Assembly: GCA_028288445.1 (NCBI GenBank)
Contig: JAQBNT010000156.1
Span: forward strand, 19,890-83,889
Length of the DNA: 64,000 bases
Reading direction: 5' to 3'
From: Hymenobacter sp.
GTDB lineage: Bacteria; Bacteroidota; Bacteroidia; Cytophagales; Hymenobacteraceae
Shown: positions 15,549-42,699 of the stretch, in pieces
How positions within the stretch are numbered: the stretch's first letter is position 1
Layout: every line of letters begins with the position of its first letter
Notes under the pieces: generated by a model
Database searches by the model: none
Told to the model about the DNA's origin: nothing
Seen by the model: only the letters and a program-made list of their open reading frames with translations
Program-made: the position numbers and the translations under genes

Positions 15549-15653
15549 AACGTCATGCTGAGCGCAGTCGAAGCATCTCTACCGCAATAGTAAATCCTGT
15601 CGATTGGATTATTACAGCGGTAGAGATGCTTCGACTGCGCTCAGCATGACGTT
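15549..15653. repeat. Palindromic repeat, GTCATGCTGA-N-GAAGCATCTC family, copy 2
   Basis: aacgtcatgctgagcgcagtcgaagcatctctaccgc ... gcggtagagatgcttcgactgcgctcagcatgacgtt. Confidence 0.92.
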
Positions 15654-15675: not shown

Positions 15676-16707
15676 TTACCCCACCAGCTTGGGCGCTGGG
15701 TTCGACGACTCGCGCACCACGAGCGTGGTAGGCAGTTTCATCACGCTGGGGCCGGTGCTCTTGTGCTTGCGCTCGATGAGCTCGATGAGGCGCTCAGCGG
15801 CGAGCTGGCCGATTTCCTGGGCCGGCTGGGTCACGGTGCTCAGCGGCGGGTTTAGGAGGTGGGCCGACTGGGAATTGGTGAAGCTGAGCAGGGCCACTTC
15901 GCCCGGCACGTCGATGCCGCGCTGGCGCAGGGCGCCCAGGCAGCCCAGGGCCAGCCGGTCGCTGGCCGTGAAGAAGGCATCGGGCGGCGACGACAGGGCC
16001 AGCAGCTCGTCGACGAGGGTGCCGGCCTCGTCGGGGCCGAAGGTGCCGTAGCGCACCAGGTTTTCATCGAAAGGAACGCCGTATTGCTCCAGGGCGGCGC
16101 GGTAGCCGGCCAGCCGCTCCTGCGCAATGCTGAGGTAGAGCGGAATGGTGAGGTGGGCAATGCGCCGCCGGCCGGTTTGCAGCAGGTGCGAGGTGGCGGC
16201 GTAGGCCCCGCCAAAGTTGTCGGCCACCACCTGGGTCACGTCGAGTCCGGCCGCCACGCGGTCGAACAGCACCAGCGGCATGCCCTGGTCGACCAGCGCC
16301 TTGAGGTGTTTCACGTCGGAGGTTTCGCTGGAAAGCGAGAGCAGGAGGCCGTCAACGCGGCGCGACACGGCCTGCTGCACGTTGGCCACCTCGCGCTCGT
16401 AGCTCTCGTGGGTTTGGAAGATGATGACGTGGTAGCCCCGGTTGTAGGCAATGGCCTCGATGCCGTTGATGGCCTGCGAAAAGAAATTATTCGCAATCTG
16501 GGGCACGATGACGGCGATGGCCTTGCTGCTGCTGCCCTTCAGGCTGAGGGCAATGGGGTTGGGCCGGTAGTTGAGGCGCTCGGCATATTCCATCACCAGC
16601 CGCTTGGTTTCGGGGCTGATTTCGTAGCTGTCGCGCAAGGCCCTAGACACGGTCGAAGTCGACAGGTTCAGGGCGTGCGCGATATCCTTGATGGTGACGG
16701 GGTCCAA
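15676..16707 (-). CDS. LacI family transcriptional regulator
   Basis: VTIKDIAHALNLSTSTVSRALRDSYEISPETKRLVMEYAERLNYRPN HTH; periplasmic-binding-like core. Confidence 0.96.
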   Translation of the reverse strand: MDPVTIKDIAHALNLSTSTVSRALRDSYEISPETKRLVMEYAERLNYRPNPIALSLKGSSSKAIAVIVPQIANNFFSQAINGIEAIAYNRGYHVIIFQTHESYEREVANVQQAVSRRVDGLLLSLSSETSDVKHLKALVDQGMPLVLFDRVAAGLDVTQVVADNFGGAYAATSHLLQTGRRRIAHLTIPLYLSIAQERLAGYRAALEQYGVPFDENLVRYGTFGPDEAGTLVDELLALSSPPDAFFTASDRLALGCLGALRQRGIDVPGEVALLSFTNSQSAHLLNPPLSTVTQPAQEIGQLAAERLIELIERKHKSTGPSVMKLPTTLVVRESSNPAPKLVG

Positions 16708-17083: not shown

Positions 17084-19600
17084 ATGAAAGTAGTGCGTGT
17101 GCAAAAAGGAGTGCTGGCCGCCGGGCTGGCCGTGGCCATTGGTCTCACCGCGTTTCGGCTGCGCCCGCCCGAAGAGGGGCTGTTGCCGCGCATTGCCCGG
17201 CAGCTGGCTGAGTATTACACTGCCGCTCGGCAGGAAAAGGTGTACCTGCACCTCGACCGGCCGGTGTACGGCACCGGCGAAACCATCTGGTTCAGCGCCT
17301 ACGTGGTGGACGCCTCCCGGCACGAGCTCGACTCGCTCAACCAGGTGCTGCACGTCGACCTGCTCTCGCCCGAGCGCCGGGTGGTGGCCCGCCGCACCCT
17401 GCGCCTGCAGGGCGGCCGCGCCAGCGGCGACCTTACCATTGCCGACACCCTGGCCGCCGGCACCTATGTGCTGCGCGCCTACACCAACTGGATGCGCAAC
17501 GCCGGCGACGAGTTCGTGTACAGCCGCCGGCTGAGCGTGTGGCCGGCCTCGCCCATTGGCCCGCAGGAGCCCCGCGTGGCCGCCGCGCCCACCACGGCCT
17601 TTGCCCGCGCCCGGGCCGCCGCCGCCGCCCGCCCCGACGTGCAGTTTATGCCCGAAGGCGGCTACCTCGTGGAGGGCCTGCCCGCCGTGGTGGCCTGCAA
17701 AGCCACCGATGCCAGCGGCCGGGGCCTCGACGTGCGCGGCCAGATTCTCAATGACAAAAACGCCGTGGTGGTGCCCGCCTTCAGCAGCCGGCACGCGGGC
17801 ATGGGGCGCTTTGCCTTCGTGCCCGGCACCGGCCAGCGCTACCACGCCCACCTCACCCTGCCCGACGGCAGCACCGCCGACTACCCGCTGCCCGCCGTGC
17901 AGCCCAGCGGCTACACCCTGCACATTGTGGACGGGGGCGAAAACTTCATCGTGGAGGCCCGCTACCGGGGTGCGGGCGGTGCGCCCGCGCCCGGCCCCGT
18001 GCAGCTCATGACCCAGGTGCGCGGCGTGGTGGCCTACCCCGGCCCCCGCACCTTCAGCGGCGATGCGCCCGCCGCGTGGCGCATGCCCAAGAAGAATTAC
18101 CCCAACGGCATCGTGCACTTCACCTTGTTCGATGCGCAGGGCGCGCCGCAGTGCGAGCGGCTGGCGTTTGCCCAGAACGGGGCGGCCGGGCTGCGCATCG
18201 CCATCACCCCCGACCAGCCCAGCTACGGGCCGCACGCGCCGGTGCAGCTGGCCGTGCGCGTGACCGATGCCGCCGGCCAGCCGGTGGCCACCAACTTCTC
18301 GCTCGGCGTGAGCGATGCCGGCCTCAGCGCCCTTGACCCCAACGCCGAAACCATTGCCTCGAACCTGCTGCTGACCTCCGACCTGGTGGGCTACGTGGAG
18401 AACCCGGGCTACTACTTCCGCAGCCCCACGGCCGGCACCAACCAGGCCCTCGACGACCTGCTGCTGACCCAGGGCTGGCGGCGCTTTGTGTGGAAGCAGG
18501 TGCTGGCCGGCCAGGCCCCGCCGCTGCGCTTCGGCCCCGAGCACGACCTGAGCCTGGTGGGCCAGGTGGTGAGCGAGCACGGCAACCGCCCCATCCCCAA
18601 CAGCCAGCTGACCTTCCTGCAAACGCGGCCTGCCAAAAACATCACCACCGGCACCACCAACGCCGACGGCCGCTTCAGCTTCGTGGGCATTCCCGTGGTC
18701 GATACGGCCGTTATCACGCTCCAGGCCCGGCGGTCGCAGGGCGGCAGCAACGTGCTCATCCGGCCCGATGAAGGCCCCGCCGTGCCCGCTCAGGCGCTGC
18801 CGCCGCTGCCCTCGCTGGCGGCAGCCCCGGCGGGGGTAGCGGCCTTTGTGCGCCGCAGCCGCCAGGCCCAGGCCACCGAGCTCGACCTGCACCCCGACAA
18901 GGCCATTCGCAACATCAACCTGGGCAACGTGGCCGTGACGGCCAAGCGCCTGAAAGTGCCCGCCGACGACCCGCGCCGCCTCTACGGGGCCACGGGCGGC
19001 ACCGTGGTCGACTTCACCGAAATCCCCTCGGCCCAATCGGCCCAGAACCTGCTGCAAGTGCTGCAAGGCCGGGTGGCAGGCCTCGTCATCAGCGGCAACC
19101 CGCCGGATATGTCGGCGCAAATCCGGGGCTCCGGCTCGCCCCAGTTTATTCTGGATGGGATGAAAGTGGATATTGACGTCATTTCCACCATTCCGGCGAC
19201 GGATGTCGAGTCGGTCGAAATATTCAAGGGGCCGGAAGGGGCCATCTTTGGCAGCAGCGGCGGCGTTATTGCCATCTACACCAAGCGCGCCGACCCCAAC
19301 TACAAGGGGGCCGACAAAGGCCCCGCGCCGGGCATTGCCATCGTGAAGATGGCCGGCTTCGCCGAGGTCCGCGAGTTCTACCAGCCCCGCTACAACGCCC
19401 TGCTCACCAACCCGCCCGCCGACCCGCGCACCAGCACCCTGTACTGGAACCCCATCGTGCGCACCAACGCCAGGGGCGAAGCCGAGCTGCACTTTTTCAC
19501 CGCCGATGGCAGCGGCACCTTTCAGGCCGTGGCCGAGGGCCTGAGCCTGGACGGCGTGCCTGCTACGGGCAGCGGCACGCTCACGGTGAAAGGCAAGTAA
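17084..19600 (+). CDS. MG2/alpha-2-macroglobulin-like protein with carboxypeptidase-regulatory and TonB plug-like domains, no beta-barrel
   Basis: KVYLHLDRPVYGTGETIWFSAYVVD (MG2), VSEHGNRPIPNSQLTF, LLQVLQGRVAGLVISGNPP...AQIRGSGSPQFILDGM (plug), YWNPIVRTNARGEAELHFFTADGSGTFQAVAEG. Confidence 0.85.
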   Translation: MKVVRVQKGVLAAGLAVAIGLTAFRLRPPEEGLLPRIARQLAEYYTAARQEKVYLHLDRPVYGTGETIWFSAYVVDASRHELDSLNQVLHVDLLSPERRVVARRTLRLQGGRASGDLTIADTLAAGTYVLRAYTNWMRNAGDEFVYSRRLSVWPASPIGPQEPRVAAAPTTAFARARAAAAARPDVQFMPEGGYLVEGLPAVVACKATDASGRGLDVRGQILNDKNAVVVPAFSSRHAGMGRFAFVPGTGQRYHAHLTLPDGSTADYPLPAVQPSGYTLHIVDGGENFIVEARYRGAGGAPAPGPVQLMTQVRGVVAYPGPRTFSGDAPAAWRMPKKNYPNGIVHFTLFDAQGAPQCERLAFAQNGAAGLRIAITPDQPSYGPHAPVQLAVRVTDAAGQPVATNFSLGVSDAGLSALDPNAETIASNLLLTSDLVGYVENPGYYFRSPTAGTNQALDDLLLTQGWRRFVWKQVLAGQAPPLRFGPEHDLSLVGQVVSEHGNRPIPNSQLTFLQTRPAKNITTGTTNADGRFSFVGIPVVDTAVITLQARRSQGGSNVLIRPDEGPAVPAQALPPLPSLAAAPAGVAAFVRRSRQAQATELDLHPDKAIRNINLGNVAVTAKRLKVPADDPRRLYGATGGTVVDFTEIPSAQSAQNLLQVLQGRVAGLVISGNPPDMSAQIRGSGSPQFILDGMKVDIDVISTIPATDVESVEIFKGPEGAIFGSSGGVIAIYTKRADPNYKGADKGPAPGIAIVKMAGFAEVREFYQPRYNALLTNPPADPRTSTLYWNPIVRTNARGEAELHFFTADGSGTFQAVAEGLSLDGVPATGSGTLTVKGK

Positions 19601-19620
19601 ACCAGTGACGGGGGCATACC

Positions 19621-19746
19621 GGAACATTCCGGCATGCCCCCGACGGGCGCAACCACGACCCCGGAACATTCCGGTATGCCCCCAACGGGCGTAACCACGA
19701 CCCCGGAACATTCCGGCATGCCCCCAACGGTCGCGGGCACGACCCC
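19621..19746. repeat. Three tandem 42-bp units
   Basis: ggaacattccgg(c/t)atgcccccRacgg... units at 19621, 19663, 19705. Confidence 0.93.
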
Positions 19747-19788
19747 GGAATGTTCCGGAGTCGTGCCCGCGACCGTTGGGGGCATACC
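19715..19788. repeat. Long hairpin: 36-bp arms, 2-nt spacer, 2 mismatches
   Basis: ggcatgcccccaacggtcgcgggcacgaccccggaa / ttccggagtcgtgcccgcgaccgttgggggcatacc. Confidence 0.93.
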
Positions 19789-19842
19789 GCAACTCAGCGG
19801 AACGCCCCTGACGAGCGCGGCGGGCACTCCGCTGAGTTGCGG
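19787..19842. repeat. Adjacent inverted repeat, perfect 15-bp arms
   Basis: ccgcaactcagcgga ... tccgctgagttgcgg. Confidence 0.88.
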
Positions 19843-19938: not shown

Positions 19939-20964
19939 CTATTCCTTGGTGATGCGGGCGCTGCTGCGCTGGCCACCGTCGGCGTACTCTACCAGGTAGA
20001 GGCCGCGGCCCAGGCTGCTCAGGTCCACAGCCGTTTCGGTGGTGCCGGGCTGGGCGCTGAAGCTGGCCACGCGGGCCCCGGTGGTGCTGAACACCGTCAC
20101 GCGGGCATCGCGGCTGGCGGCGGTGTGGGGCACGCTCAGGCGGTTCTGCACGGGGTTGGGGTAAGCGGCCAGGTTGGTGCTAGCCAAGCCGGCGCGGGTG
20201 GCCGAAACGACCGCCTGCTGGCTTTTCAGAATCACGTCGCGCAGGATAAAGTAGCGTCCTTCCGTGTCGCTGCCCACCCGGAAATATAGCCGTACGGTAA
20301 GCGTGGCGTTGGCTGCGATGCTCAAGCCGCCGCTGCTTAGGAAAGCCATGCGGTACGTGCTAGTAGGGGTGGTGGCCGAAACGTTCGGCAGCACAATGGG
20401 GTTAGCAGCCGTGGTGGTGCTTGCGGCTCCGAAAGAGCCGTTGGCAGCAGCGCCCAACACGCCGCCCGGGCCCTTGCCCCCGGCAAAGTCTGCCGAGTCG
20501 GTAGCAAAGCCGCTCAGGGAATAGGCAAGAGCGGCGCGGCCGTTAGCCGAGTTAGCCGTTCCGGCCGAAAAAATCAGCGAATCAACGCGCAGAGGAGTTG
20601 TTCCCGAGTTGGTAATGGTAAACTGCTCAAACCACTTGCGGCGCGGACCCGTCGAAATGGCGGAGCTGCCGCCGGCACCCGTGGCAGCCGTGCCAAAGGC
20701 CTGACCCAAGCTCGAATACGGAGCATAAGCAGTGGTAGCCGCGCCAGTTGATGCAACCACGTTGGCCAAGCCATTGGATAGCACATAGCGCCGGAAAGTG
20801 GCAGCGCCTGCGGTCACGCCGGTAGTTGGCCGGCGTACAGCCGCGCTGTCCGAAGCATTACGCTTCAGTGGCCACTGCACGAAAACCTGGGTTTGAGCCG
20901 CTGCCTTTTCGGCCAGGCCCAGGCCAGCTAATAACAATAGTGTGGAAAGTAGATTCTTTTTCAT
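19939..20964 (-). CDS. Secreted protein of unknown function with T9SS type A sorting domain
   Basis: Signal peptide MKKNLLSTLLLLAGLGLAEKAAA; C-term LAAYPNPVQNRLSVPH...GLYLVEYADGGQRSSARITKE. Confidence 0.88.
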   Translation of the reverse strand: MKKNLLSTLLLLAGLGLAEKAAAQTQVFVQWPLKRNASDSAAVRRPTTGVTAGAATFRRYVLSNGLANVVASTGAATTAYAPYSSLGQAFGTAATGAGGSSAISTGPRRKWFEQFTITNSGTTPLRVDSLIFSAGTANSANGRAALAYSLSGFATDSADFAGGKGPGGVLGAAANGSFGAASTTTAANPIVLPNVSATTPTSTYRMAFLSSGGLSIAANATLTVRLYFRVGSDTEGRYFILRDVILKSQQAVVSATRAGLASTNLAAYPNPVQNRLSVPHTAASRDARVTVFSTTGARVASFSAQPGTTETAVDLSSLGRGLYLVEYADGGQRSSARITKE

Positions 20965-21098
20965 GGGGTTGGGATTGGGAGTTGAAATGGAAAGTTAAAG
21001 CGGTACGTCTGGTTGAGTTTAAACAGTATGAGCGGGATATTACTCCTGCAATCTGTGGCTTCTATTACCAAAAACAAAGGATTGGGGCGACTTTAGTT

Positions 21099-21119
21099 GC
21101 GCAATCGTTGCCGGGAACG
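21099..21119 (-). promoter_or_regulatory. Candidate operator site B
   Basis: gcgcaatcgttgccgggaacg = reverse complement of the 21-mer; 135 bp upstream of the 20964 start. Confidence 0.65.
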
Positions 21120-21170
21120 TTGGCGCTGAGTGCAACAGCGGCGCTTAGGTAAAACGATTCATCGGTTAAT

Positions 21171-21211: not shown

Positions 21212-21216
21212 GAGAA

Positions 21217-21237
21217 CGTTCCCGGCAACGATTGCGC
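21217..21237 (+). promoter_or_regulatory. Candidate operator site C upstream of the esterase-GH28 gene
   Basis: CGTTCCCGGCAACGATTGCGC, 124 bp upstream of ATG 21361. Confidence 0.65.
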
Positions 21238-21360
21238 AAAAAAAAGCGCCCGGGCGGGTGAGAACAGGGGGGCAACGGTCGGGAAGCGGCCTAATATTGT
21301 ATAGGGCGATACTGTCCGCGCGGCCCGTTTGGGGCCGGCACTACACTTTCCTTCTCTCCG

Positions 21361-23724
21361 ATGAAATCAACTTTGGTCGCACTGCTGGCCGGGCTCGGCA
21401 CCTGCCTCACGGCAGCCTTCCGCCCGGTCGATGCCCCGAAAACGCAGATTTTCCTGGTCGGCGATTCCACGATGGCCGACAAGGCCGACCTGACCAAGCC
21501 CGAGCGCGGCTGGGGCATGGAGTTCGGCCAGTATTTCGACGGTGGCGTGGTCATCCGCAACACCGCCGTGAACGGCCGCAGCACCAAAAGCTTCCTGCGC
21601 GAAGGCCGCTGGGCGAAAGTGGTGCAGGACCTAAAGCCCGGCGACTGGGTGTTCATCCAGTTCGGCCACAACGATTCGAAGGTGGAGGACAGCGTCCGCT
21701 CGGCCCCGGCCCAGACGCTGTACCGCCAGCTGCTCACCAAATTCGTGCAGGAAGCCAAGGCCAAAGGCGCGAACCCGGTGTTGCTCACGCCGGTGGGCCG
21801 CCGCTATTTCGACGATGCCGGCAAGCGCAAGGACGACCACGGCGAATACCCCGGCGTGGTGCGCGAAGTGGCCAAAGCCCAGAAGGTGCCGCTCATCGAC
21901 CTGCACGAAAAAAGCTGGGCCATGTACTCGGCCATGGGCGAAACCGGCACCCGCCCGCTGTTCTGGAGCTACCTCAACGGCTACTACCAGCCCAACCCCG
22001 TGGCCCCGGCCAAAAACGACAACACCCACTTCTCGGAGTACGGTGCCACCCGCGTGGCCCAGATTGTGGCCGAAGACGTGCAAACCCAGCACCTCGCGCT
22101 GGCCAGCCACCTCGCCCGCACCGCGTTCGAGGGCAAGCTCGCCGCCGACCTGCCCGTGGTGCTGCAAACCATGTTCAAAAAGGACACCTTCAACCTGGCC
22201 AAATACGGTGCCGTGGCCGACGGCCAGACCCTGAACAGCGAGGCGTTCCGCAAGGCCATTGAGGCCTGCGCCGTGACCGGTGGCACCGTGCTGGTACCGC
22301 GCGGCCTGTGGCTTACCGGCCCCATCGTGCTGAAAAGCAACGTGAACCTGCACCTGGCTACCGGCGCGCTCGTGCAGTTCACGGCCGACCGCAGCCAGTA
22401 CCCACTCATCAAAACCACCTGGGAAGGGGAGGAGGCCATCCGCAGCCAGGCCCCGATTTCGGGCGTGGACCTGACCAACATTGCCGTCACCGGCAACGGC
22501 ACGTTCGACGGTGCGGGCGATGCCTGGCGGCCCGTGAAAAAGAACAAGCTCAACGAAAGTCAGTGGCAAAAGCTGGTGGCCTCGGGCGGCGTGCTCAACG
22601 AGAAGAAGGATTACTGGTACCACACGGCTGCTTCGCTGAAAGGCAATATGCTGGCCGCGGCTGGCACCCCACGCAAGAGCCTGAACGTGGGTGATTTTGA
22701 CGATATCCGGGATTTTCTGCGGCCCAACATGCTCAGCCTCACGCGCTGCAAGCAGGTGCTGCTGGAAAGCTTCGTTATTCAGAACTCGCCAGCCTGGACC
22801 ATTCATCCGCTGCTGTGCGAGGACATCACCGTGCGCAACGTGACGGCCCGCAACCCCTGGTATGGCCAGAACACCGATGCCATCGACCTCGAATCGTGCC
22901 GCAACGGCTTGGTGGAAGGCTGCACGTTTGATGTGGGCGACGATGGCCTGTGCATCAAGTCGGGCCGCGACGAAGAAGGCCGCAAGCGCGGCGTGCCCAC
23001 CGAGAACTTCGTCATCCGCGACTGTAAGGTGTACCATGCCCACGGCGGCTTCGTGATTGGCTCCGAGATGTCGGGCGGCGTGCGCAACCTGTACGTGAGC
23101 AACTGCACCTTTATCGGCACCGACGTGGGCCTGCGCTTCAAAACGGCCCGGGGCCGCGGCGGCGTGGTCGAAAATATCTTCGTCGACGGCGTGGACATGA
23201 CCGACATTGCCGGCGAGGCCGTGCTGTTCGACATGTACTACGCCGCCAAGGACCCCGTGCCGCTGGCCGGCGAAAGCACCGCGCCGCCCGTCATCGCCGC
23301 CAAGCCGCTGAACGAAGGCACGCCGCAGTTCAAGAACTTCCGCATCCGCAACATCACCTGCAAAGGCGCGACCACCGGCATCCTGGTACGGGGCTTGCCT
23401 GAGATGAGCATCAAGGACATCAGCATCGAAAATGCGGTGCTCGAAAGCAAGAAAGGCCTGTTGTGCCAGGAAGCCGAAAACATTCGCCTGAAAAACGTGA
23501 CTTTGCTTTCGACTGAAACCATGCCCGTGATGGAAGTGCAGAACAGCCGCAACATCACCCTCGACGGCATCCGCTACGCCAATGGCGCGGAGCTACTCCT
23601 GCGCGTGACCGGCGACCGTAGCAAGGACATCCGCCTGGTGAATACCAACACCAAGCTGGCGAAGAAAGACGTGCAGCTGGGCGACAAAGTGGCCAAGAAA
23701 ACGGTCAGTGTCGCGCAGCGGTAA
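21361..23724 (+). CDS. Fusion of SGNH/GDSL rhamnogalacturonan acetylesterase (CE12-like) and GH28 polygalacturonase
   Basis: N-term IFLVGDSTMADK...GWGMEFGQYF, FIQFGHND, DNTHFSEYGA; C-term NTDAIDLESC, GDDGLCIKSG, GGFVIGSEMSGG, LRFKTARGRGG. Confidence 0.93.
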   Translation: MKSTLVALLAGLGTCLTAAFRPVDAPKTQIFLVGDSTMADKADLTKPERGWGMEFGQYFDGGVVIRNTAVNGRSTKSFLREGRWAKVVQDLKPGDWVFIQFGHNDSKVEDSVRSAPAQTLYRQLLTKFVQEAKAKGANPVLLTPVGRRYFDDAGKRKDDHGEYPGVVREVAKAQKVPLIDLHEKSWAMYSAMGETGTRPLFWSYLNGYYQPNPVAPAKNDNTHFSEYGATRVAQIVAEDVQTQHLALASHLARTAFEGKLAADLPVVLQTMFKKDTFNLAKYGAVADGQTLNSEAFRKAIEACAVTGGTVLVPRGLWLTGPIVLKSNVNLHLATGALVQFTADRSQYPLIKTTWEGEEAIRSQAPISGVDLTNIAVTGNGTFDGAGDAWRPVKKNKLNESQWQKLVASGGVLNEKKDYWYHTAASLKGNMLAAAGTPRKSLNVGDFDDIRDFLRPNMLSLTRCKQVLLESFVIQNSPAWTIHPLLCEDITVRNVTARNPWYGQNTDAIDLESCRNGLVEGCTFDVGDDGLCIKSGRDEEGRKRGVPTENFVIRDCKVYHAHGGFVIGSEMSGGVRNLYVSNCTFIGTDVGLRFKTARGRGGVVENIFVDGVDMTDIAGEAVLFDMYYAAKDPVPLAGESTAPPVIAAKPLNEGTPQFKNFRIRNITCKGATTGILVRGLPEMSIKDISIENAVLESKKGLLCQEAENIRLKNVTLLSTETMPVMEVQNSRNITLDGIRYANGAELLLRVTGDRSKDIRLVNTNTKLAKKDVQLGDKVAKKTVSVAQR

Positions 23725-23748: not shown

Positions 23749-23851
23749 CCGTCATGCTGAGCGAAGTCGAAGCATCTCTACCGCAGTACTAAACTCAATC
23801 GAAAGGATTAGTTGTGCGGTAGAGATGCTTCGACTCCGCTCAGCATGACGG
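23749..23851. repeat. Palindromic repeat, GTCATGCTGA-N-GAAGCATCTC family, copy 3
   Basis: ccgtcatgctgagcgaagtcgaagcatctctaccgc ... gcggtagagatgcttcgactccgctcagcatgacgg. Confidence 0.92.
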
Positions 23852-23874
23852 CCTTATATCTAACACCCCACCCA

Positions 23875-25803
23875 ATGAAACCAACTACCCGTCTCATTCT
23901 CCCGCTGCTGGGCCTGGCGCTGCTGAGCGAAACCGCCTCCGCCCAAACGGCGCGGCCGGCCGCCTACTCCCAGCGCATGGCCGACGCCTTCATGACCTGG
24001 CACCCCGATTCGATGGTCATCGGCAAGAACAAAATGGCTGGCTGGGGCTACGAGCAGGGCCTGATGATGTACGCCATGGAGCGCATCTGGGAGCGCACCG
24101 GCGACGCCAAATACTTCAGCTACATCAAGAAAAACCTCGACTACTCGGTGCAGGCCGACGGCAGCATTCTCAAGTATAAGCAGGAAGATTTCAACCTCGA
24201 TAACATGGCCACCGGCCGTGCCCTGCTGCTGCTGAGTCAGATGTCGGTGCCCGGTAATGAAAAGTATATCAAGGCGGTGCAATACCTGCGCAAGCAGCTT
24301 GATGGCCAGCCGCGCACCAAGGAAGGCGGCTTCTGGCACAAAAAGGTTTACGTCAACCAGATGTGGCTCGATGGCTTGTACATGGCCGAGCCGTTCTACG
24401 CCAACTACAGCCAGGTTTTCAACCAGGCGGCGGGCTTTGATGACGTGGCCAAGCAGTTTGCCCTCATCGAAAAGCATTTGGTGGATGCCAAAACCGGCCT
24501 GCTCTACCACGGCTACGACGAAAGCAAGGAGCAAGCCTGGGCCAACAAAACCACCGGCCAGAGCCCCAACTTCTGGGACCGCGGCATTGGCTGGTACGGC
24601 ATGGCGCTGGTCGATGTGCTCGACTATTTCCCCGCCAACCACCCGCAGCGCCCCATGCTCATCAAGGCCCTGCAACGCCTGGCCCCCGCATTGGCCAATT
24701 ACCAGGACCCCAAAACTGGCACTTGGAGCCTCGTGATGGCCCAGGAAGGCCGCAAGGGCAATTACGCCGAAGCCTCCGGTAGCAGCATGTTCGTCTACGC
24801 GCTAGCCAAGGGCGTGCGCCTCGGCTACCTCGATAAAAAGTATAGGGAAGTAGCAAAGAAAGGCTACGACGGCCTGCTGAAAACCTTCGTCGAAACTGAG
24901 CCCACCGGCGCGCTGGCCTTCAACGGCACGGTGAGCGTGGGCGGCCTGGGCGGCAAGCCCTACCGCGACGGCTCCTACGAATACTACCTCACCGAGCCGC
25001 TGCGCAAGAACGATTTGAAGGGCGTCGGCCCGTTCATCCTGGCCAGCACGGAGATGGAAATTGCCGCTGAAAACGCCGTTGGCCAGGGCAAAACCGTGGG
25101 CCTGGACTACTACTTCAACCACGAGATGCGCAAAAGCCCTGTGACGGGCGAGCCGGAGCAGTGGCACTACACCTGGGAGGAGCGCACCCACGGCGGCTTC
25201 TGGCTGTGGGGCAACCAGTTCCGCGAACTGGGTGCCAAAACGGTAGCCGTGCCCACGGCCCCCACCGCCGCCAGCCTCAAGCCCCTGAGCGTGTACATCA
25301 TCGTCGACCCGGACTCGCGTAAGGAGTCGCCCAAGCCCAACTATGTGCAGCCCGCCGACAGCAAGGCCATCACCGAATGGGTAAAAGGCGGTGGCACCCT
25401 CGTCCTCCTCGCCAACGACACGGCCAACTGCGAAATCAAGCACTTCAACGAGTTAGCCAAAAACTTCGGTGTACAGTTCACCAACCAGAGCGTGAACATG
25501 GTGCAGGGCTCGCAGTTCGAGCAGGGCAAAGTGGATTTAACCTCCGGCAAAGCTGTTTTCAAAACTGCCACCACGGCCTACGTGAAGGAACTGGCGGTGC
25601 TATCGGTAGCAACTCCGGCCCAGCCGCTGGTCACCAACAACGGCAAGGTGATTATGGCCACGGCCCGCCTGGGCAAGGGCAAAGTCTTCGTCCTCGGCGA
25701 CCCGTGGCTGTACAACGAGTACACCGACGGCCGCAAAATCCCGGCTTCGTTCGAGAATTTCCAGGCCGGAAAGGACCTGGCAACGTGGTTGCTGGGCAAG
25801 TAA
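23875..25803 (+). CDS. GH105/GH88-type unsaturated rhamnogalacturonyl hydrolase with C-terminal DUF4350-like domain
   Basis: WGYEQGLMMYAMERIWERTGD, VNQMWLDGLYMAEPF, FWDRGIGWYGMALVDVLDYFP; C-term VYIIVDPDSRKESPKPNYVQPADSKAITEWVKGGGTLVLLANDTANCEI. Confidence 0.92.
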   Translation: MKPTTRLILPLLGLALLSETASAQTARPAAYSQRMADAFMTWHPDSMVIGKNKMAGWGYEQGLMMYAMERIWERTGDAKYFSYIKKNLDYSVQADGSILKYKQEDFNLDNMATGRALLLLSQMSVPGNEKYIKAVQYLRKQLDGQPRTKEGGFWHKKVYVNQMWLDGLYMAEPFYANYSQVFNQAAGFDDVAKQFALIEKHLVDAKTGLLYHGYDESKEQAWANKTTGQSPNFWDRGIGWYGMALVDVLDYFPANHPQRPMLIKALQRLAPALANYQDPKTGTWSLVMAQEGRKGNYAEASGSSMFVYALAKGVRLGYLDKKYREVAKKGYDGLLKTFVETEPTGALAFNGTVSVGGLGGKPYRDGSYEYYLTEPLRKNDLKGVGPFILASTEMEIAAENAVGQGKTVGLDYYFNHEMRKSPVTGEPEQWHYTWEERTHGGFWLWGNQFRELGAKTVAVPTAPTAASLKPLSVYIIVDPDSRKESPKPNYVQPADSKAITEWVKGGGTLVLLANDTANCEIKHFNELAKNFGVQFTNQSVNMVQGSQFEQGKVDLTSGKAVFKTATTAYVKELAVLSVATPAQPLVTNNGKVIMATARLGKGKVFVLGDPWLYNEYTDGRKIPASFENFQAGKDLATWLLGK

Positions 25804-26057: not shown

Positions 26058-27749
26058 ATGAACCAGCTCGCTACGATTGATTACATCGTTTTCTTCGTCT
26101 ACTTCATCATCGTGTCCAGCTACGGCATCTGGATTTACCGGCGCAAAACCGGCCACGACGGCACCCTCGAAGGCGATTCCAAAGACTACTTCCTCGCCGA
26201 AGGCTCGCTGACGTGGTGGGCCATCGGCTCCTCGCTCATCGCTTCCAACATCTCGGCCGAGCAGTTTGTGGGCATGTCCGGCTCGGGCTTCAAGATGGGC
26301 CTGGCCATTGCCACCTACGAGTGGATGGCCGCCATTACGCTGGTCGTGGTAGCCGTGTTCTTCATCCCGGTTTACCTGAAGAACAACATCGCCACGATGC
26401 CGCAATTCCTGAGCCAGCGCTACAACAGCACGGTGGCCATGATTATGGCTCTCTTCTGGCTGGCGCTCTACATCGTGGTCAATCTGACCTCCATTCTCTA
26501 CCTCGGGGCCATTGCCATCAGCAGCATCGCCGGCCTAAACCTGACGTTCTGCATGTACATGCTGGCCGGTTTTGCGGTCGTTATCACGCTGGGCGGCATG
26601 AAGGTGATTGGCTTCACCGACGTTATTCAGGTGTTCTTCCTGATTCTCGGCGGCCTGGCCACTACCTACCTGGCCCTGAACCTGGTAGCGGAGCACTACG
26701 GCTCCTCAGGTGTTCTCAGCGGCTTCAACCTGATGACGCAGCACGCCGGTGACCACTTCCAGATGATTTTCAAGCGCGACAACGAAAACTACATCGACTT
26801 GCCCGGCCTCACGGTACTAATAGGGGGCATGTGGATTGTGAACCTGAACTACTGGGGCTGCAACCAATACATCACCCAGCGCGCCCTCGGGGCCGATTTG
26901 CCTACGGCCCGCGCCGGTATCCTGTTCGCCGCTTTCCTCAAGCTGCTGATGCCCGTGATTGTGGTGCTGCCCGGCATCGCCGCCTACGTGCTCTACAAGC
27001 AGGACGTGTTTGGCGAATTCGGCAAGGCCATGGTGTCGGGCGGCGAGCTGAACCCCGACCGCGCATATCCGGTGCTGCTCAACATCCTGCCCGTGGGTTT
27101 GAAGGGCCTGTCCTTCGCCGCCCTCACGGCTGCCGTGGTGGCCTCGCTGGCCGGCAAAGCCAACTCCATCGCCACCATCTTCACCCTTGACGTTTACAAG
27201 AAAGTCATCAACCCCGAAGCCTCGGAAAAGACGCTGGTGAGCACCGGCAAAATTGCCGTAGTGGTGGCCATGGTGCTGGGCGTGCTCATCGCGCCGCACC
27301 TCGGCATCGACAAAAAAGGTGGTTTCCAGTATATTCAGGAGTATACGGGATTTGTGTCGCCGGGCATTTTTGCCATGTTCATCCTAGGCTTCTTCTGGAA
27401 GAAAACGACGTCGAGCGCGGCGCTGTTCGCCACCATTGGTGGCTTCCTGCTCTCGCTGCTGCTCAAGTTCCTGCCCGGCATGGTGAACCTGTCGTTCCTC
27501 TCGCCGTTCGGCTTTGCCGTTAAAAATTCCGCCGGCGTGTATGAAATCCCCTTCCTCGACCGGATGGGTTTCGTGTTCCTCTTCTGCGTGATTGGGATGG
27601 TTATCATCAGCCTGTACGAAAAGAGCCGCGGCGTGAAAACCAACGGCTTGGAAGTAGACCGCAGCATGTTCAAGCCGCAGCCCAGCTTCGCTATCGGCAC
27701 GGCCGTTATTCTGGTCATTCTCACCACGCTGTACACCATCTATTGGTAA
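26058..27749 (+). CDS. Sodium/sugar (SSS) symporter, SglT-like
   Basis: SSLIASNISAEQFVGMSGSGFKMGLAIATYEWMA, WGCNQYITQRALGA, AALTAAVVASLAGKANSIATIFTLDVYKK. Confidence 0.92.
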   Translation: MNQLATIDYIVFFVYFIIVSSYGIWIYRRKTGHDGTLEGDSKDYFLAEGSLTWWAIGSSLIASNISAEQFVGMSGSGFKMGLAIATYEWMAAITLVVVAVFFIPVYLKNNIATMPQFLSQRYNSTVAMIMALFWLALYIVVNLTSILYLGAIAISSIAGLNLTFCMYMLAGFAVVITLGGMKVIGFTDVIQVFFLILGGLATTYLALNLVAEHYGSSGVLSGFNLMTQHAGDHFQMIFKRDNENYIDLPGLTVLIGGMWIVNLNYWGCNQYITQRALGADLPTARAGILFAAFLKLLMPVIVVLPGIAAYVLYKQDVFGEFGKAMVSGGELNPDRAYPVLLNILPVGLKGLSFAALTAAVVASLAGKANSIATIFTLDVYKKVINPEASEKTLVSTGKIAVVVAMVLGVLIAPHLGIDKKGGFQYIQEYTGFVSPGIFAMFILGFFWKKTTSSAALFATIGGFLLSLLLKFLPGMVNLSFLSPFGFAVKNSAGVYEIPFLDRMGFVFLFCVIGMVIISLYEKSRGVKTNGLEVDRSMFKPQPSFAIGTAVILVILTTLYTIYW

Positions 27750-27771
27750 TACCGGGCTTGCGTGATTTCAC

Positions 27772-27848
27772 GCAGGGTTAAAAACGTAGTGTCCCGCAGT
27801 GTCGTTCTTTCATTAGAGCACTGCGGGACACTGCGTTTTTAACCCTGC
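27772..27848. repeat. Long inverted repeat (30-bp arms) downstream of the symporter
   Basis: gcagggttaaaaacgtagtgtcccgcagtg ... cactgcgggacactgcgtttttaaccctgc. Confidence 0.9.
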
Positions 27849-27930
27849 GAGACACTGCATGAAATAATATCAGGGCCAGTTATTTAAGTGAAAAATCTTA
27901 CGCACATGACGGGTGCCTTTTGCTGATTCC

Positions 27931-27966: not shown

Positions 27967-28149
27967 ATCTTTTAGGGGCGGAGTGGAATTGAATTAGGGT
28001 TTAAATTGTCTTATTCCGTAGTCGAATAGGCAAGAACAATGATTCGGGCAATATTGATTTGGACTGGTGGCGAATAGCTCCATAAATTAGCAGTGTCCGG
28101 ACGCGCTGCCCGCGTCGGCAGCCCCTCCCCCCAAATCCCACCCCTACCC

Positions 28150-29106
28150 ATGCGCGCACTTTTCCTCTTTTCCCTGCTACTGCTGAGCTTCTCCGGCTTC
28201 GCCCAAACCAAGCAATTCTTGGTGGCCCAGGATGGTAGCGGAGCCTACCGCACTGTGCAGGCCGCCCTCGACGCGGTGCCCAAAAACAACACCACGCCCA
28301 TCATTATCTTCATCCGCAAGGGGGTTTACAAGGAGAAGCTGAACCTGGCCAAAAAGCAGAATTTCGTGCGCCTGGTGGGTGAGGAAGTGAACACCACCGT
28401 GCTCACCTACGACGACTACAACGGCCGCACCCCCGCCAACGGCGAGCCCCTGGGCACGTCCGAAGCTTCCAGCTTCCGGGTCTTCGGCAACGACTTTTCG
28501 GCCATCAACCTCACCTTCGAGAACACCGCTGGCACCGTGGGCCAGGGCCCCGCCATGTGGGTATATGGCGACAAAGCCCAGTTCGAAAATTGCCGCTTCC
28601 TGGGCTTCCGCGACACGCTGTACCCCTACGGCTACGGCAGCCGACAGTATTATAAGAACTGCTACATCGAAGGCACCACTGATTTTATCCTGGGCTCGGC
28701 CACGGCGTGGTTTGAGGATTGCACGCTGTTTTGCAAGGCGGGCGGCACCGTCATCATGGCCCCATCCACGCCCGACAGCATCCGCTACGGCTTTGTGCTA
28801 CAGCGCTGCAAGATTGTGGGCGATGGTACGCCCGGCTCCCTTTTCCTGGCCCGCCCCTGGAAGCCCGCCGCCAAAACCGTGCTGCTCAACTGCGAGCTGA
28901 GCGCCCTCATCACCCCCAAGGGCTGGGACCACTGGGGCAAGGAAAGCAACAAACAGGATGCCTTTTTTGGCGAGTTCAAGTCCATCGGTCCCGGCGCGGC
29001 GCCCAAGGCGCGCATCCTGTGGTCGCACCAGCTTACGCCGCAGCAGGCCGCCTTCTACACCCGCGAAACCGTGCTCGGCGGTTGGGTGCCAAGCGTGCCG
29101 CAGTAA
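28150..29106 (+). CDS. Pectinesterase (CE8)
   Basis: DGSGAYRTVQAALDAVP, GQGPAMWVYGDKAQFENCRFLGFRDTLY, GTTDFILGSATAWFEDC, LARPWKP motifs. Confidence 0.95.
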   Translation: MRALFLFSLLLLSFSGFAQTKQFLVAQDGSGAYRTVQAALDAVPKNNTTPIIIFIRKGVYKEKLNLAKKQNFVRLVGEEVNTTVLTYDDYNGRTPANGEPLGTSEASSFRVFGNDFSAINLTFENTAGTVGQGPAMWVYGDKAQFENCRFLGFRDTLYPYGYGSRQYYKNCYIEGTTDFILGSATAWFEDCTLFCKAGGTVIMAPSTPDSIRYGFVLQRCKIVGDGTPGSLFLARPWKPAAKTVLLNCELSALITPKGWDHWGKESNKQDAFFGEFKSIGPGAAPKARILWSHQLTPQQAAFYTRETVLGGWVPSVPQ

Positions 29107-29180: not shown

Positions 29181-29375
29181 TTCTTGCCTTGGCATGACAG
29201 AATCGGCGGATTTTATGAAAAATATCGGTAAACCTCAAGCAAGTCGACTTTCTTAGTAAAGTTCAATAATGGGTCATGTTGAAGCGGGGCGTATGAGATG
29301 AATGCCCTTCGTTGGGTTTTTAGGGTCTGAGGCAATTTCAAGCCATGGTATGGGTAGGAGAGGGGTACATGGCAT

Positions 29376-29396
29376 CGTTCCCGGCAACGATTGCAC
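29376..29396 (+). promoter_or_regulatory. Candidate operator site D upstream of kduD
   Basis: CGTTCCCGGCAACGATTGCAC (20/21), 126 bp upstream of ATG 29522. Confidence 0.65.
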
Positions 29397-29521
29397 AAAA
29401 AAATATTGTCCAACTCTTGCTTTTGGCTGAGGCTTCACCAAACCTTTAAGAAGCAGGACCGGCCCCAACTGCATTTTTGGGCTTGTTGGCCCTGCTTCAT
29501 CCTCTCAACATCGTCCCTTTT

Positions 29522-30292
29522 ATGACCGCATTTTCTTCTGCATTTAGCTTAGCCGGCAAGCGGGCCCTCGTTACGGGTTGCGACCGGGGTATCGGGCAGG
29601 CCATCGCCCTCGGTTTGGCTGAGGCGGGCGCTGATATCATCGGCGTATCCATGCACATGCCCGCCGGCGGCGAAACCGAAGTAGCGGTGCAGGCGCTGGG
29701 CCGCGAGTACCGGGGCTACCAGGCCGATTTCGGCAAGCTGGACGAATTGCAGGGCTTTATCAAGGAAGTGCAGGCAGATTTTCCGGTTATCGACATTCTG
29801 TTCAACAACGCCGGCATCATCCGCCGCGCCCCCGCCGCCGCGCATTCCGACGAAGACTGGGATGCCGTGCTGAGCATTAACCTCGACGCGCCGTTCCGTT
29901 TGGCCCGCGCCATTGGCGGCCAGATGCTGAAAAACGGCAGCGGCAAAATCATTTTCACTGCCTCGCTGCTCACCTTTCAGGGCGGCATCAACGTGCCCAG
30001 CTACGCGGCCAGCAAAGGCGGCGTGGGCAGCTTGGTGAAAGCCCTTGCCAACGAGTGGGCCGGCCAGGGAGTGAACGTGAACGCCATCGCGCCCGGCTAC
30101 GTGGCCACCGACAACACCGCCGCCCTGCGTCAGGACGAGGAGCGCAGCGCCGCCATCCTCTCGCGTATTCCGGCCGGCCGCTGGGCCTTGCCTACGGACT
30201 ACCAGGGCCCCGCCGTGTTCCTGGCCTCGGCCGCCAGCGACTACGTGCACGGCACCATCCTCACCGTCGATGGCGGCTGGATGGGACGGTAG
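29522..30292 (+). CDS. kduD: 2-dehydro-3-deoxy-D-gluconate 5-dehydrogenase
   Basis: SDR: FSLAGKRALVTGCDRGIGQAIALGLAEAGADIIGVS, NNAGIIRRAPA, PSYAASKGGVGSLVKALANEWA; adjacent to kduI. Confidence 0.93.
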   Translation: MTAFSSAFSLAGKRALVTGCDRGIGQAIALGLAEAGADIIGVSMHMPAGGETEVAVQALGREYRGYQADFGKLDELQGFIKEVQADFPVIDILFNNAGIIRRAPAAAHSDEDWDAVLSINLDAPFRLARAIGGQMLKNGSGKIIFTASLLTFQGGINVPSYAASKGGVGSLVKALANEWAGQGVNVNAIAPGYVATDNTAALRQDEERSAAILSRIPAGRWALPTDYQGPAVFLASAASDYVHGTILTVDGGWMGR

Positions 30293-30298
30293 CTTTGC

Positions 30299-30385
30299 AA
30301 TGAGGAATGAAGAATGAGGAATGAAGAATTGCTTCACCTGATTCATTAGCAACAATTCCTCATTCTTCATTCCTCATTCTTCATT
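30299..30385. repeat. Hairpin whose arms are heptanucleotide tandem repeats
   Basis: aatgaggaatgaagaatgaggaatgaagaatt ... aattcctcattcttcattcctcattcttcatt. Confidence 0.9.
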
Positions 30386-30392
30386 AAAAAAG

Positions 30393-31223
30393 ATGACTCA
30401 GCGCTTTGCCATTGGTCCCCGCGAAACTTCAACCCTCAACACGAGTGGTATCCGGGAGCATTTCCTGATTGAAAATATCTTCACGGCCGGCGAAATCGAG
30501 CTGACCTACACGCACTACGACCGCATGATTGTGGGCGGCGCACAGCCCGCTTCGGCCGCGCTGACGCTGCCGTGCCCCGAGTCGCTGAAGGCCAACTTCT
30601 TCCTGGAGCGCCGCGAGTTGGGCGCGCTCAACGTGGGCGGCGCTGGCACCGTGACGGTGGACGGCACCGTGTACGAGTTGGGCAATCAGGACTGCCTTTA
30701 CGTGGGCATGGGCAGCAAGGAAGTGGCCTTCGCCAGCGCCGACGCGGCCAATCCGGCCAAATTTTACCTGCTTTCGGCCCCGGCCCACGCGGTGCACCCC
30801 ACCGCCCGCCGCACCCAGGCCGAAGCCACGCCCGTGCAAATGGGTGCCCTGGAAACCGCCAACGAGCGCACCATCTACAAATACATCTACGCCGAAGGCA
30901 TCCAGAGCTGCCAGCTGGTGATGGGCCTGACCCAGCTCAAAGCCGGCAACGTGTGGAACACCATGCCCTCGCATACCCACGACCGGCGCATGGAGGCTTA
31001 CCTCTACTTCAACATGCCCCAGGGCCAGCGCGTGCTGCACCTGCTGGGCGAGCCCACCGAAACCCGCCCGCTGTGGGTGAGCAACGAGCAGGCCATTCTC
31101 TCGCCGCCGTGGTCCATCCACACCGGCTGCGGCACCAGCAACTATGCCTTCATCTGGGGCATGGCCGGCGAAAACCGCGAATACACCGACATGGACGCCG
31201 TGCCCCTCGACACGCTGCGATAG
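30393..31223 (+). CDS. kduI: 5-dehydro-4-deoxy-D-glucuronate isomerase
   Basis: YTHYDRMIVGGAQP, WNTMPSHTHDRRMEAYLYFN, PPWSIHTGCGTSNYAFIWGMAGEN motifs. Confidence 0.97.
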   Translation: MTQRFAIGPRETSTLNTSGIREHFLIENIFTAGEIELTYTHYDRMIVGGAQPASAALTLPCPESLKANFFLERRELGALNVGGAGTVTVDGTVYELGNQDCLYVGMGSKEVAFASADAANPAKFYLLSAPAHAVHPTARRTQAEATPVQMGALETANERTIYKYIYAEGIQSCQLVMGLTQLKAGNVWNTMPSHTHDRRMEAYLYFNMPQGQRVLHLLGEPTETRPLWVSNEQAILSPPWSIHTGCGTSNYAFIWGMAGENREYTDMDAVPLDTLR

Positions 31224-31264: not shown

Positions 31265-34200
31265 ATGAAAAAACATCTTCTCCTGCTTTGGCTGCTGCTC
31301 CTAGGGAGTATCGGGCTGGCGGCGGCGCAAAGTCGCCAGGTTCAGGGCGTTGTGAAAGCGGCCGACGGGGAAACCCTGCCGGGCGTGACCGTACTGGTAG
31401 AAGGTACCACCAACGGTGCCTCGACCGGGCCGAATGGCGACTTTTCCATTACGCTGCCCGCCAATAGCACCAACACCACGTTGCGGTTCAGCTACGTGGG
31501 CTACGTGTCGCAGGCCGTGAAGGTGGGCGACAAATCGTCCATCAACGTCACGTTGGCTGCTGATAGCAAGCAGCTGGACGACGTGGTGGTTATCGGCTTT
31601 CAGGAAGTGCAGCGCCGCGATGTAACCGGCTCAGTTGCTTCGGTGAATGCGCAGCAAATCAAGGATATTCCGGTGAACTCGGCGGCCGAAGCGCTGTCGG
31701 GCCGCCTGGCCGGGGTGCAGGTCACTTCCTCGGAGGGCCAGCCCGGCTCTTCGGTGCAGGTACGGGTGCGGGGCGGCGGTTCCATCACGCAGGACAACTC
31801 GCCGCTGTACGTGGTGGACGGGGTGCAGGTAGAAAATGCCCTGGCAGTGCTCTCGCCGCAGGACATCGCCTCCGTGGATGTGCTGAAGGATGCCTCGGCC
31901 ACGGCCATTTACGGTGCCCGTGGGGCCAACGGTGTGGTTATCATCACCACTAAAGGCGGCAAGGAAGGCCGTACTACCGTGACGTACAACGGCTTTGCCG
32001 GCTTCCGCCGCATCGTGAAAACGCTGCCCGTGCTGCAATCGGCCGATTATGTAGACTATGCCTATGAAAAGTCGCGCATCTCGGGCGGCACGGCGCTGAC
32101 GGGCTTCAAGAGCCGTTTTGGCAGCCTTACTTTCCGCGACCAGCGGCCGTATAGCAGCACGGTGCCCGGCTACGACACGCTGGGTGTATCGCGCAACGCG
32201 GACTTCATCAACTGGCAGGACCGGGTGTTTGGCGGCGATGCGTTCCAGCAAACCCACAACGTATCGGTGGCCGGCGGGGCCAAGGGCACGACTTACGCCC
32301 TGAGCCTGACGCGCAACGATGAAAACGGCATTCAGCTTAACACCGGCTTTGTGCGGAACCTGGTGAACTTCCGCTTCGACCACAAGGCTAGCGACAAGTT
32401 CCGGGTGGGCTTCACCAGCCGTCTCACCGACCAGGTGGTGACGGGTGCTGGTACTTCCAGCTCCATCACGGCCCCCACCACCAGCACGCGCCTGCGCAAT
32501 GCGCTGGTGTACCTGCCCATTCTGACAGCGGCGCAGGCCAACGCGGGCGTGCCGGTAGACGACTACCCGGACGACGAGTTCTTCTCGGCCTCGAACTCGC
32601 TTTCGAACCCGATTCTGACCATCAACAACGAGGTGCGCAAAAACCGCAGCCGCGTGTTCAACCTGAGCGGCAACGCCAGCTATAACTTCACCAAAAACCT
32701 GTCGTTCCGCTCCACGCTGGGCTTCGACTACACCACTGCGCGGGTGGAGGACTTCTACGGCCAGTACTCGCCGGCGGTGCGCACCCAGAGCGGCCTGCCC
32801 TACATTTCCATCGGCACGACTCAAGCCGTGACGCTCAACAACTCGAATGTGCTGAGCTACACGGTGAAATTTGGTAAGAATACCTTCGACGGCGTGCTGG
32901 GCGAGGAAACTTACCAGCGCCGCAACCCTTACCTGAACGTGACGAGCTACTACCTGCCCAAGGGCATCTCGTTCGAGCGGGCCGTAGACAACATCGGCCA
33001 GCGTGACCCCAACGCCCCCGCCACGCCCCAGCTCGGGCCGCTGACCGGCGTGACCGAAGACTCGCGCCTGCTCTCGGGCTTCGGCCGCCTCAACTACAAC
33101 TACGACGGCAAGTACCTCTTCACGGCCACGTTCCGGGCCGATGGCTCGTCGAAGTTCAAGGGCAGCAACAAGGTGGGCTACTTTCCGGCGGCTTCGGCGG
33201 CCTGGCGCATCTCGCAGGAGAAATTCATGGAGCCCTTCGCGGCCACCGTCACCGATGCCAAGCTGCGCCTGAGCTACGGCCTGTCGGGCAACAACCGCAT
33301 CAAGGATTTTCTATATGACCCGCTGTTTGGTACCAGCACGCTGGAAACCATCCGGGACGGCAGCCTGCTCAATACGTATTACGCCCTCAACGAAAACCTG
33401 ACGCCGGGCGTGGCGGCCACCTCGCTGGCCAACCCCAACCTGAAGTGGGAAACCACGGCCTCGACCAACGTGGGCTTCGACCTGGGCCTGTTCAACAACC
33501 GCCTGCAGCTTACGGCCGATGCCTACTACAACCGCACTTCCGACCTGCTGCTGAACCTGAGCATCAACCCCAGCAGCGGCTACCTCACGCAGCTCATCAA
33601 CATCGGGGCTACCTCGAACCGCGGCTTGGAGCTGCAGGCTACCGGCACCATCATTAAAACGCCGGATTTCACCTGGTCGGCCAACACCAACTTCTCCTTC
33701 AACCGCAACCGCGTGGAGGACCTGGGCGGTCTGGCGGCGCTGCCCATTCAGTATTCGGGCTGGGCCAGCACGGCCATCACCGGCGACTACTATGTGGCCG
33801 TGGGCCAGCCCGTGGGCCTGATGTACGGCTACGTGACGGACTTCTCAAACGGTGGCAAGGGCTTCTATACCGCCGATGACTTCAAGGGCTACAACGCCGC
33901 CAGCAACCAGTGGATTCTGAAGGATGGCATAGCCAGCGATAAAGGCGTGACCGGCTTCAGCAGCAGCGAGGTAACCCCCGGCACCATCAAGCTGAAGGAC
34001 CTCAACGGCGACGGACAGATAACGCCCGACGACCGCCAGGTTATCGGCAACGCCAACCCCAAGTTCACGGGTGGCCTCAACCAGCAGTTTGCCTACAAGA
34101 ATTTCGATGCCAGCATCTTCCTGAACTGGGTGGTGGGCAACGACATCTACAACGCCAACAAGATTGAGCTGACCTCGTACCTGGCCGGCGGCAACCTGGC

Positions 34201-34600: not shown

Positions 34601-34612
34601 TTGCTTCCTATC

Positions 34613-39171: not shown

Positions 39172-39183
39172 TTGAATATAAAA

Positions 39184-39290
39184 AGAACGTCATGCTGAGT
39201 GAGTGAGCCACAGTGTCTCTGCCCTGATACTATTTCCTTCGCTGCAACGAAGCGGCAGAGATGCTGCGGCCCCGCTTGGCCCGATGATTC
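39184..39290. repeat. Degenerate GTCATGCTGA-type palindromic repeat
   Basis: gaacgtcatgctgagtgagtgagccacagtgtctctgcc ... ggcagagatgctgcggccccgcttggcccgatga. Confidence 0.6.
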
Positions 39291-39310
39291 CCCGATAATT
39301 ACCCATTGAT

Positions 39311-40963: not shown

Positions 40964-40978
40964 CCCACCAAAGAATTT

Positions 40979-40995
40979 ACGCAACCGTTTTCGCT
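40979..40995 (-). promoter_or_regulatory. LacI-family operator-like site upstream of uxaC
   Basis: ACGCAACCGTTTTCGCT (rc AGCGAAAACGGTTGCGT); 117 bp before ATG 41112. Confidence 0.4.
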
Positions 40996-41048
40996 AATAA
41001 ATACCCGAATCAGGACGGCCCATGAGGGTTACGCGCCCGCGCCAGGCC

Positions 41049-41056
41049 TACCTTCG
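41049..41056 (+). promoter_or_regulatory. Possible Bacteroidota -7 element upstream of uxaC
   Basis: TACCTTCG, close to TANNTTTG. Confidence 0.35.
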
Positions 41057-41111
41057 ACCCCTGAAATCATTCGAATTTATCAGAACCCTGGTTCTGCCTT
41101 CCTGATTGATT

Positions 41112-42545: not shown

Positions 42546-42559
42546 CGGCTGTTTCCGCC

Positions 42560-42661
42560 TGTCATCCTGAGCGGAGCGAAGGACCTTCTCACGTTTGCAT
42601 CGAATAGATTACTGTAAACCGTTCAAGCCTGAGAAGGTCCTTCGCTCCGCTCAGGATGACA
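42560..42661. repeat. Palindromic repeat (GTCATCCTGAGCGGAGCGAAGGACCTTCTC variant)
   Basis: tgtcatcctgagcggagcgaaggaccttctc ... gagaaggtccttcgctccgctcaggatgaca. Confidence 0.9.
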
Positions 42662-42699
42662 ATAGTTTCCAGAATCTCAAGTACCCAACCACCCCTAGA

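Follow-up and report, generated by a model that had tools for sequence, protein, structure and literature searches.

Gene organization of the pectin locus

The window, that is, the whole stretch of 64,000 nucleotides of Hymenobacter DNA analyzed here, contains a gene for a protein of 341 amino acids at 19939–20964 (−), called as an open reading frame with an ATG start. Its N terminus, MKKNLLSTLLLLAGLGLAEKAAAQ, has the appearance of a Sec signal peptide (residues 1–24, 20893–20964 (−)); throughout this work, signal peptides were judged by eye, and gene starts were taken as the first in-frame ATG. A lipobox of the SusE/F type was sought, and cysteine was found to be absent from residues 1–30. 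The C terminus carries a T9SS type-A sorting domain (residues 268–335, 19960–20163 (−)), which was matched by Por_Secre_tail PF18962 over the same residues (40.8 bits, cut-off 27) and by TIGR04183 over residues 268–340 (34.8 bits, cut-off 23). Beyond this tail, searches of Pfam and NCBIfam gave no match above cut-off. The open reading frame and both tail models agree with the first-pass annotation, which had described a signal peptide and a T9SS tail on a protein with no recognized enzyme motif. The T9SS translocon protein SprA is encoded in the same genome, referred to here as the host genome (TIGR04189, 1990 bits, contig C65), and the sequence of the 341-residue protein suggests that it is displayed on the cell surface. 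The body of the protein, approximately residues 26–250 (20215–20889 (−)), was given the working name DOM and assigned as an uncatalogued beta-sandwich domain from its paralogs in CE8 proteins and from structural modeling. The protein shares its apparent signal peptide and PF18962/TIGR04183 tail with general T9SS type-A cargo and differs from it in having the pectin-associated DOM, and no known cargo domain, as its body.

A complete homogalacturonan system is encoded within the window. A T9SS pectate lyase of family PL1 (PF00544 and PF18962) lies at 2252–4039 (+), and a LacI-family regulator (PF00356 and PF13377) lies at 15676–16707 (−). Across an intergenic gap from the DOM gene, and divergent from it, is a fusion of an SGNH esterase with GH28 (21361–23724 (+); PF13472, Lipase_GDSL_2, and PF00295, Glyco_hydro_28), so the esterase-GH28 neighbor named in the first-pass annotation was borne out. 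The fusion is followed by genes for a GH88-family hydrolase (23812–25803 (+), PF07470), a sodium:solute symporter (SSF; 26058–27749 (+), PF00474) and a CE8 pectin methylesterase without DOM (28093–29106 (+), PF01095). A further run consists of an SDR dehydrogenase and a KduI-family isomerase (29477–31223 (+), starting at 29477 and 30393; PF13561 and PF04962), a SusC and SusD transporter pair (31265–36400 (+), starting at 31265 and 34601; PF07715/PF00593 and PF07980) and a PL10 pectate lyase (36466–37581 (+), PF09492). Galacturonate catabolism is represented at 37636–43710 (+) by a mannitol-dehydrogenase-like UxaB, the altronate dehydratase UxaA, the isomerase UxaC and a PfkB-family kinase, all assigned with Pfam. 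No SusE/F-like gene is present between SusD and PL10 at this locus; the usual SusE/F position is empty, because PL10 comes immediately after SusD. The DOM gene itself is ~10 kb from susD on the opposite strand and not directly 3′ of it.

Several other features of the region were recorded. Between the DOM gene and the LacI gene, an oppositely oriented gene for an 838-residue protein with MG2 and TonB-plug matches (17084–19600) fills the slot where relatives have CE8-DOM genes. In the gap that separates this gene from the 3′ end of the DOM gene, 19611–19808 is densely filled with direct and inverted repeats of the CCGGAACATTCCGG type, perhaps terminators or an array of REP elements. A 101-nucleotide REP- or MITE-like sequence occurs in two intergenic copies that are 86% identical (15551–15651 and 23750–23850), and each copy is almost perfectly an inverted repeat in itself (CGTCATGCTGAGC...GAAGCATCTCTACCGC). 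The stretch from the SSF gene to the CE8 gene contains, at 27768–27852, a 34-nucleotide inverted repeat with 94% complementarity and a 17-nucleotide loop.

Distribution and enzyme fusions of DOM

Searching the host genome with the 341-residue protein returned paralogs, several of them far larger than the query. Three are CE8 pectinesterases in which a DOM region of ~210 residues follows the enzyme on its C-terminal side, another is a 1543-residue Fn3 protein with three DOM copies, and a further one is a second stand-alone T9SS DOM protein (373 amino acids), encoded divergently from a DUF4955-like T9SS protein. A stand-alone DOM gene reduced to a truncated remnant, lacking a signal peptide, was also seen beside a second LacI gene on contig C241 (L011 4317–4775).

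Strong DOM matches were found in 21 of 61 genomes of the genus and, in the rest of the sampled class and phylum, in two genomes only, both of one other family. A second survey of named genomes, with one genome for each of 84,980 species, gave 44 DOM loci from Hymenobacter, Chitinophagaceae and related Bacteroidota MAGs. Fusion to CE8 was seen in 33 of 58 DOM proteins in the genus and phylum survey and in 41 of 55 in the named-genome survey, counts that are not additive because the two surveys have species in common. The seed alignment held three CE8-borne copies, and later matches were not selected for CE8. The close DOM family is uncatalogued and recurs in Hymenobacter and Chitinophagaceae.

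Three polyproteins from Chitinophagaceae, of 2090–2525 amino acids, unite PL1, CE8 and DOM (L145 8030–14455, L151 5267–12841 and L155 6584–12853), one of them in the order PL1-DOM-CE8-DOM. Their PL1 N termini are 53–58% identical to the PL1 of the window, and each is in effect a homogalacturonan attack in one protein. When the close-family proteins were scanned with Pfam, no enzyme domain other than CE8 and PL1-CE8 was detected; the large DOM proteins without CE8 consist of Fn3 or Ig-like repeats with a T9SS tail and nothing else. The number of DOM copies per protein ranges from one to three among the relatives, most often on secreted pectin methylesterases, and some proteins carry them in tandem (DOM-DOM after CE8, or the three copies of the Fn3 protein). 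Tandem copies are common among binding modules. Attachment to pectinases in one to three copies per chain, together with export as a lone protein from a PUL without SusE/F, is best explained by a pectin-binding module.

More remote relatives were also identified, and profile comparison backs their kinship with DOM (probability 97.8 and 97.3). They occur as tandem modules N-terminal of CE8 (L106 and L108), as a module behind an SGNH esterase and adjoining CE8 (L107), and as generic beta-sandwich repeats of unrelated secreted proteins (L111 and L112). From this last group it follows that pectin specificity does not extend to the wider fold; in the close family, the link to pectin is strong. Co-occurrence at the level of whole genomes was considered as additional evidence and set aside as weakly specific: strong CE8 matches are present in 19 of 21 DOM genomes and 21 of 40 others (p 0.004), and the GH10 xylanase used as a control tracks DOM as well (18 of 21 and 23 of 40, p 0.04).

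The position of DOM between enzyme and T9SS tail, the superfamily members in unrelated secreted proteins and the absence of a clear CBM match would also fit a structural spacer or stalk without a ligand, one that holds T9SS cargo off the surface or aids its folding or display. DOM would then have stayed with CE8 by descent, and the stand-alone protein would be a component of the surface coat or a relic of a CE8-DOM gene. This is the main rival to a pectin-binding module, and we consider it unlikely, since DOM is also found at N-terminal positions and between PL1 and CE8 rather than next to the tail alone, and since it is missing from other T9SS cargo encoded at these loci, PL1 and GH28 included. 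Moreover, the stand-alone protein has no enzyme to hold, yet 22 non-redundant clusters retain it in intact form together with its operator. The presence of several DOM copies per chain, and the adjacency of stand-alone and CE8-DOM genes in several clusters, could alternatively point to a docking module, in which the stand-alone protein and the DOM copies on CE8 proteins associate, either mutually or through a common partner, into a pectinase complex at the surface. Such docking appears improbable: a recurring partner module is missing from the other enzymes of the locus, and many genomes have CE8-DOM proteins only.

Predicted structure of DOM

For structural analysis of the putative pectin-binding module, the mature protein was modeled with AlphaFold2 (pLDDT 87), and DOM was then modeled alone because multi-domain alignments had swamped the fold search made with the complete protein. 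The domain-only model (pLDDT 85.5, pTM 0.86) is an all-beta sandwich. A fold search of the PDB with this model gave nothing at E 0.001, the best match having E 1.7e-3 and a TM score of about 0.26. The top matches are rich in CBM3, CBM22, CBM35 and CBM4 structures, with query TM scores of about 0.2–0.35, so the predicted fold is compatible with a CBM-like domain and proves nothing by itself. A viral fold library gave no useful match, and a sequence search of the PDB returned a single match at chance level. Likewise, 64 DOM sequences compared with Pfam and NCBIfam showed no meaningful family match, CBM families included, and no description of DOM was found in the open-access literature.

Within the family, the aromatic residue W76 is near-invariant and is missing from the window protein. 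Conserved polar positions include D16, R21, R103, D105, D133 and R202, which, together with secretion of DOM as a stand-alone protein, might be expected of an uncharacterized pectin-active enzyme such as an esterase or lyase. We regard a catalytic role as very improbable. The conserved motifs RVDS, YEQF and LTVRLY sit on predicted strands and look structural in the model, DOM matches no catalytic family, and most copies are already attached to an enzyme, often two or three to a chain. Docking and catalysis are both less likely than the spacer role.

Synteny and the shared operator

The close association with pectin genes is maintained around the stand-alone DOM genes of other genomes. Among 22 non-redundant genes, 18 have an SGNH-GH28 gene within the stretch examined, and 11 are divergent from it as in the window. 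Typically, an SSF-GH88-SGNH-GH28 run diverges from the DOM gene, which is in many cases followed by CE8-DOM(-DOM), and then LacI. The closest ortholog found, 76% identical over the domain, has two CE8-DOM genes immediately downstream (L143).

The first-pass annotation had also claimed an operator shared with the esterase-GH28 gene, with an inverted copy of it ahead of the DOM gene, and two exact copies of a 23-bp repeat, TTGCGCAATCGTTGCCGGGAACG, are indeed present between the genes, inverted with respect to each other at 21097–21119 (+) and 21217–21239 (−); none was expected from shuffled sequences. The start of the first copy is 133 bp away from the DOM gene's first base, and 122 bp separate the end of the second from the start codon of SGNH-GH28; each gene therefore possesses an inverted copy of its own. 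As operator sites, these span 21096–21122 (+) (matrix score 44.4) and 21214–21240 (−) (score 45.0), each with its TTTG end toward its own gene. Copies with one mismatch occur at 2094–2116 (−), within the site upstream of the PL1 gene (2091–2117 (−), score 45.2), and at 29376–29398 (−), within the site upstream of the SDR-KduI-SusC-SusD-PL10 run (29373–29399 (−), score 44.4).

This repeat forms the core of a longer conserved element of ~33 bp (TTATTTGCGCAATCGTTGCCGGGAACGTTGCCA), found genus-wide, that contains two CG-centered imperfect palindromes 12 bp apart. The element is directional, its TTTG end facing the gene in 102 of 112 assigned sites, and typically lies 80–135 bp before the first in-frame ATG. 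Across the genus it also precedes PL1, SGNH-GH28, SDR/KduI and susC genes. When a TAnnTTTG promoter was sought at constant spacing from it, few matches were obtained. DNA looping was considered and found to be unsupported, as the paired operators of the divergent region are about 84–159 bp apart with no clear helical phase.

A weight matrix was built from eight host-genome sites, which are partly DOM promoters; the sites of other genomes did not enter into it. Host sites lie upstream of the window gene, CE8-DOM genes (C111 and C300), the triple-DOM gene (C4) and the stand-alone gene (C216), with a weak site (score 10) upstream of a PL1-CE8-DOM run on contig C241; the reversed-matrix control gave one match in 200 kb. 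In other genomes, where the loci are partly redundant, 94 matches fell in the 62 kb upstream of DOM genes and 76 in the remaining 1.47 Mb, compared with 1 match for the reversed control. The operator was located upstream of 21 of the 22 non-redundant stand-alone DOM genes. An automatic count placed it at 24 of 26 stand-alone DOM genes and 41 of 780 other open reading frames (p about 2e-26, a value that treats loci as independent, which is not fully true). It also precedes 37 of 58 CE8-DOM, 11 of 12 SDR, 30 of 39 PL1 and 19 of 27 SGNH-GH28 genes. By the same per-gene count it was found at none of the operon-internal GH88, KduI and SusD genes, and six large DOM proteins with Ig-like repeats are without it.

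LacI orthologs, mostly 77–97% identical, are present in most DOM clusters, and because the full-length ones in Hymenobacter are 71–97% identical to the LacI of the window, this conserved regulator is likely to read the operator. LacI regulators of galacturonate use, such as KdgR and UxaR, have been predicted in Bacteroides (PMC3878776), where the LacI gene is likewise clustered with galacturonate enzymes and the operators are CG-centered. The rhamnogalacturonan PULs of B. thetaiotaomicron are assigned to HTCS regulators (PMC3878776), unlike the situation in Hymenobacter, where one directional element of ~33 bp spans secreted enzymes, DOM proteins, SDR/KduI and susC.

Two further occurrences were observed in the host genome. 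The operator is found ahead of a second SusC/SusD pair on contig C58 (L174 922 and 6373), beside a 940-residue uncharacterized secreted protein. A variant of the operator, the GGTAACG form, lies on contig C216 (L175 7506–7551), between another LacI gene and a 775-residue secreted protein whose N terminus resembles a PL6-type lyase; this variant suggests paralogous LacI regulons with sister operators.

Proposed function of the stand-alone DOM protein

Based on domain fusions, gene order and shared regulation, the product of the window gene is probably a non-catalytic, surface-displayed and CBM-like accessory protein of the homogalacturonan system that binds pectin. The pectin link of the DOM family is very well supported; ligand binding, and the form of pectin bound, are our inference. 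DOM would bind homogalacturonan or its partly de-esterified form, and the bound pectin would be kept close to the surface enzymes and SusCD. Points against this reading are the lack of a significant CBM match in structure or sequence, the missing W76, the remote relatives in unrelated secreted proteins and the six large DOM proteins that have no operator. The original suggestion of an accessory protein that binds pectin or sits at the cell surface, made by guilt by regulation, is strengthened by the CE8 and PL1-CE8 fusions, by synteny and by the operator in other genomes. The distribution of orthologs and paralogs, when checked, was tied to pectin loci through the fusions, the adjacency of SGNH-GH28, GH88, CE8 and LacI genes, and the shared operator.

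The stand-alone protein may act like a surface glycan-binding protein of the SusE/F type or like an enzyme-borne CBM. SusE and SusF are surface glycan-binding proteins of Bacteroidota PULs, and the stand-alone DOM protein resembles them as a secreted and probably non-enzymatic protein encoded in a PUL that has SusC and SusD. It differs in being T9SS cargo rather than a lipoprotein, in its domain and in the position of its gene, across the cluster from SusCD instead of directly after susD. CBM77 is an enzyme-borne carbohydrate-binding module of pectinases. Like such CBMs, DOM is a predicted beta-sandwich module, probably non-catalytic and sometimes in tandem, on pectin-active enzymes; in contrast to them, it has neither a Pfam CBM sequence match nor a significant fold match and is also made as a free-standing T9SS protein. 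More tentatively, and with somewhat less confidence than in pectin binding itself, we propose that DOM founds a new family that recognizes homogalacturonan, that a T9SS protein with a single DOM takes the place of the SusE/F lipoprotein, and that one directional, genus-wide operator read by LacI governs the system. Pectin drives colony expansion in flavobacteria by way of an unknown recognition step (PMC8056085), and it is a matter of speculation that a DOM protein could act in such a process.

DOM is absent from Pfam and NCBIfam and yet is part of numerous secreted pectin methylesterases and of some polyproteins that join a pectate lyase to a methylesterase. Naming it would therefore close a recurrent gap in how pectin degradation is annotated in Bacteroidota associated with plants and soil, and with the operator, regulon genes can readily be listed throughout Hymenobacter. 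If DOM binds pectin, it would be one more pectin-recognition module and would suggest that the type IX system is able to deliver the glycan-binding partner of a PUL.
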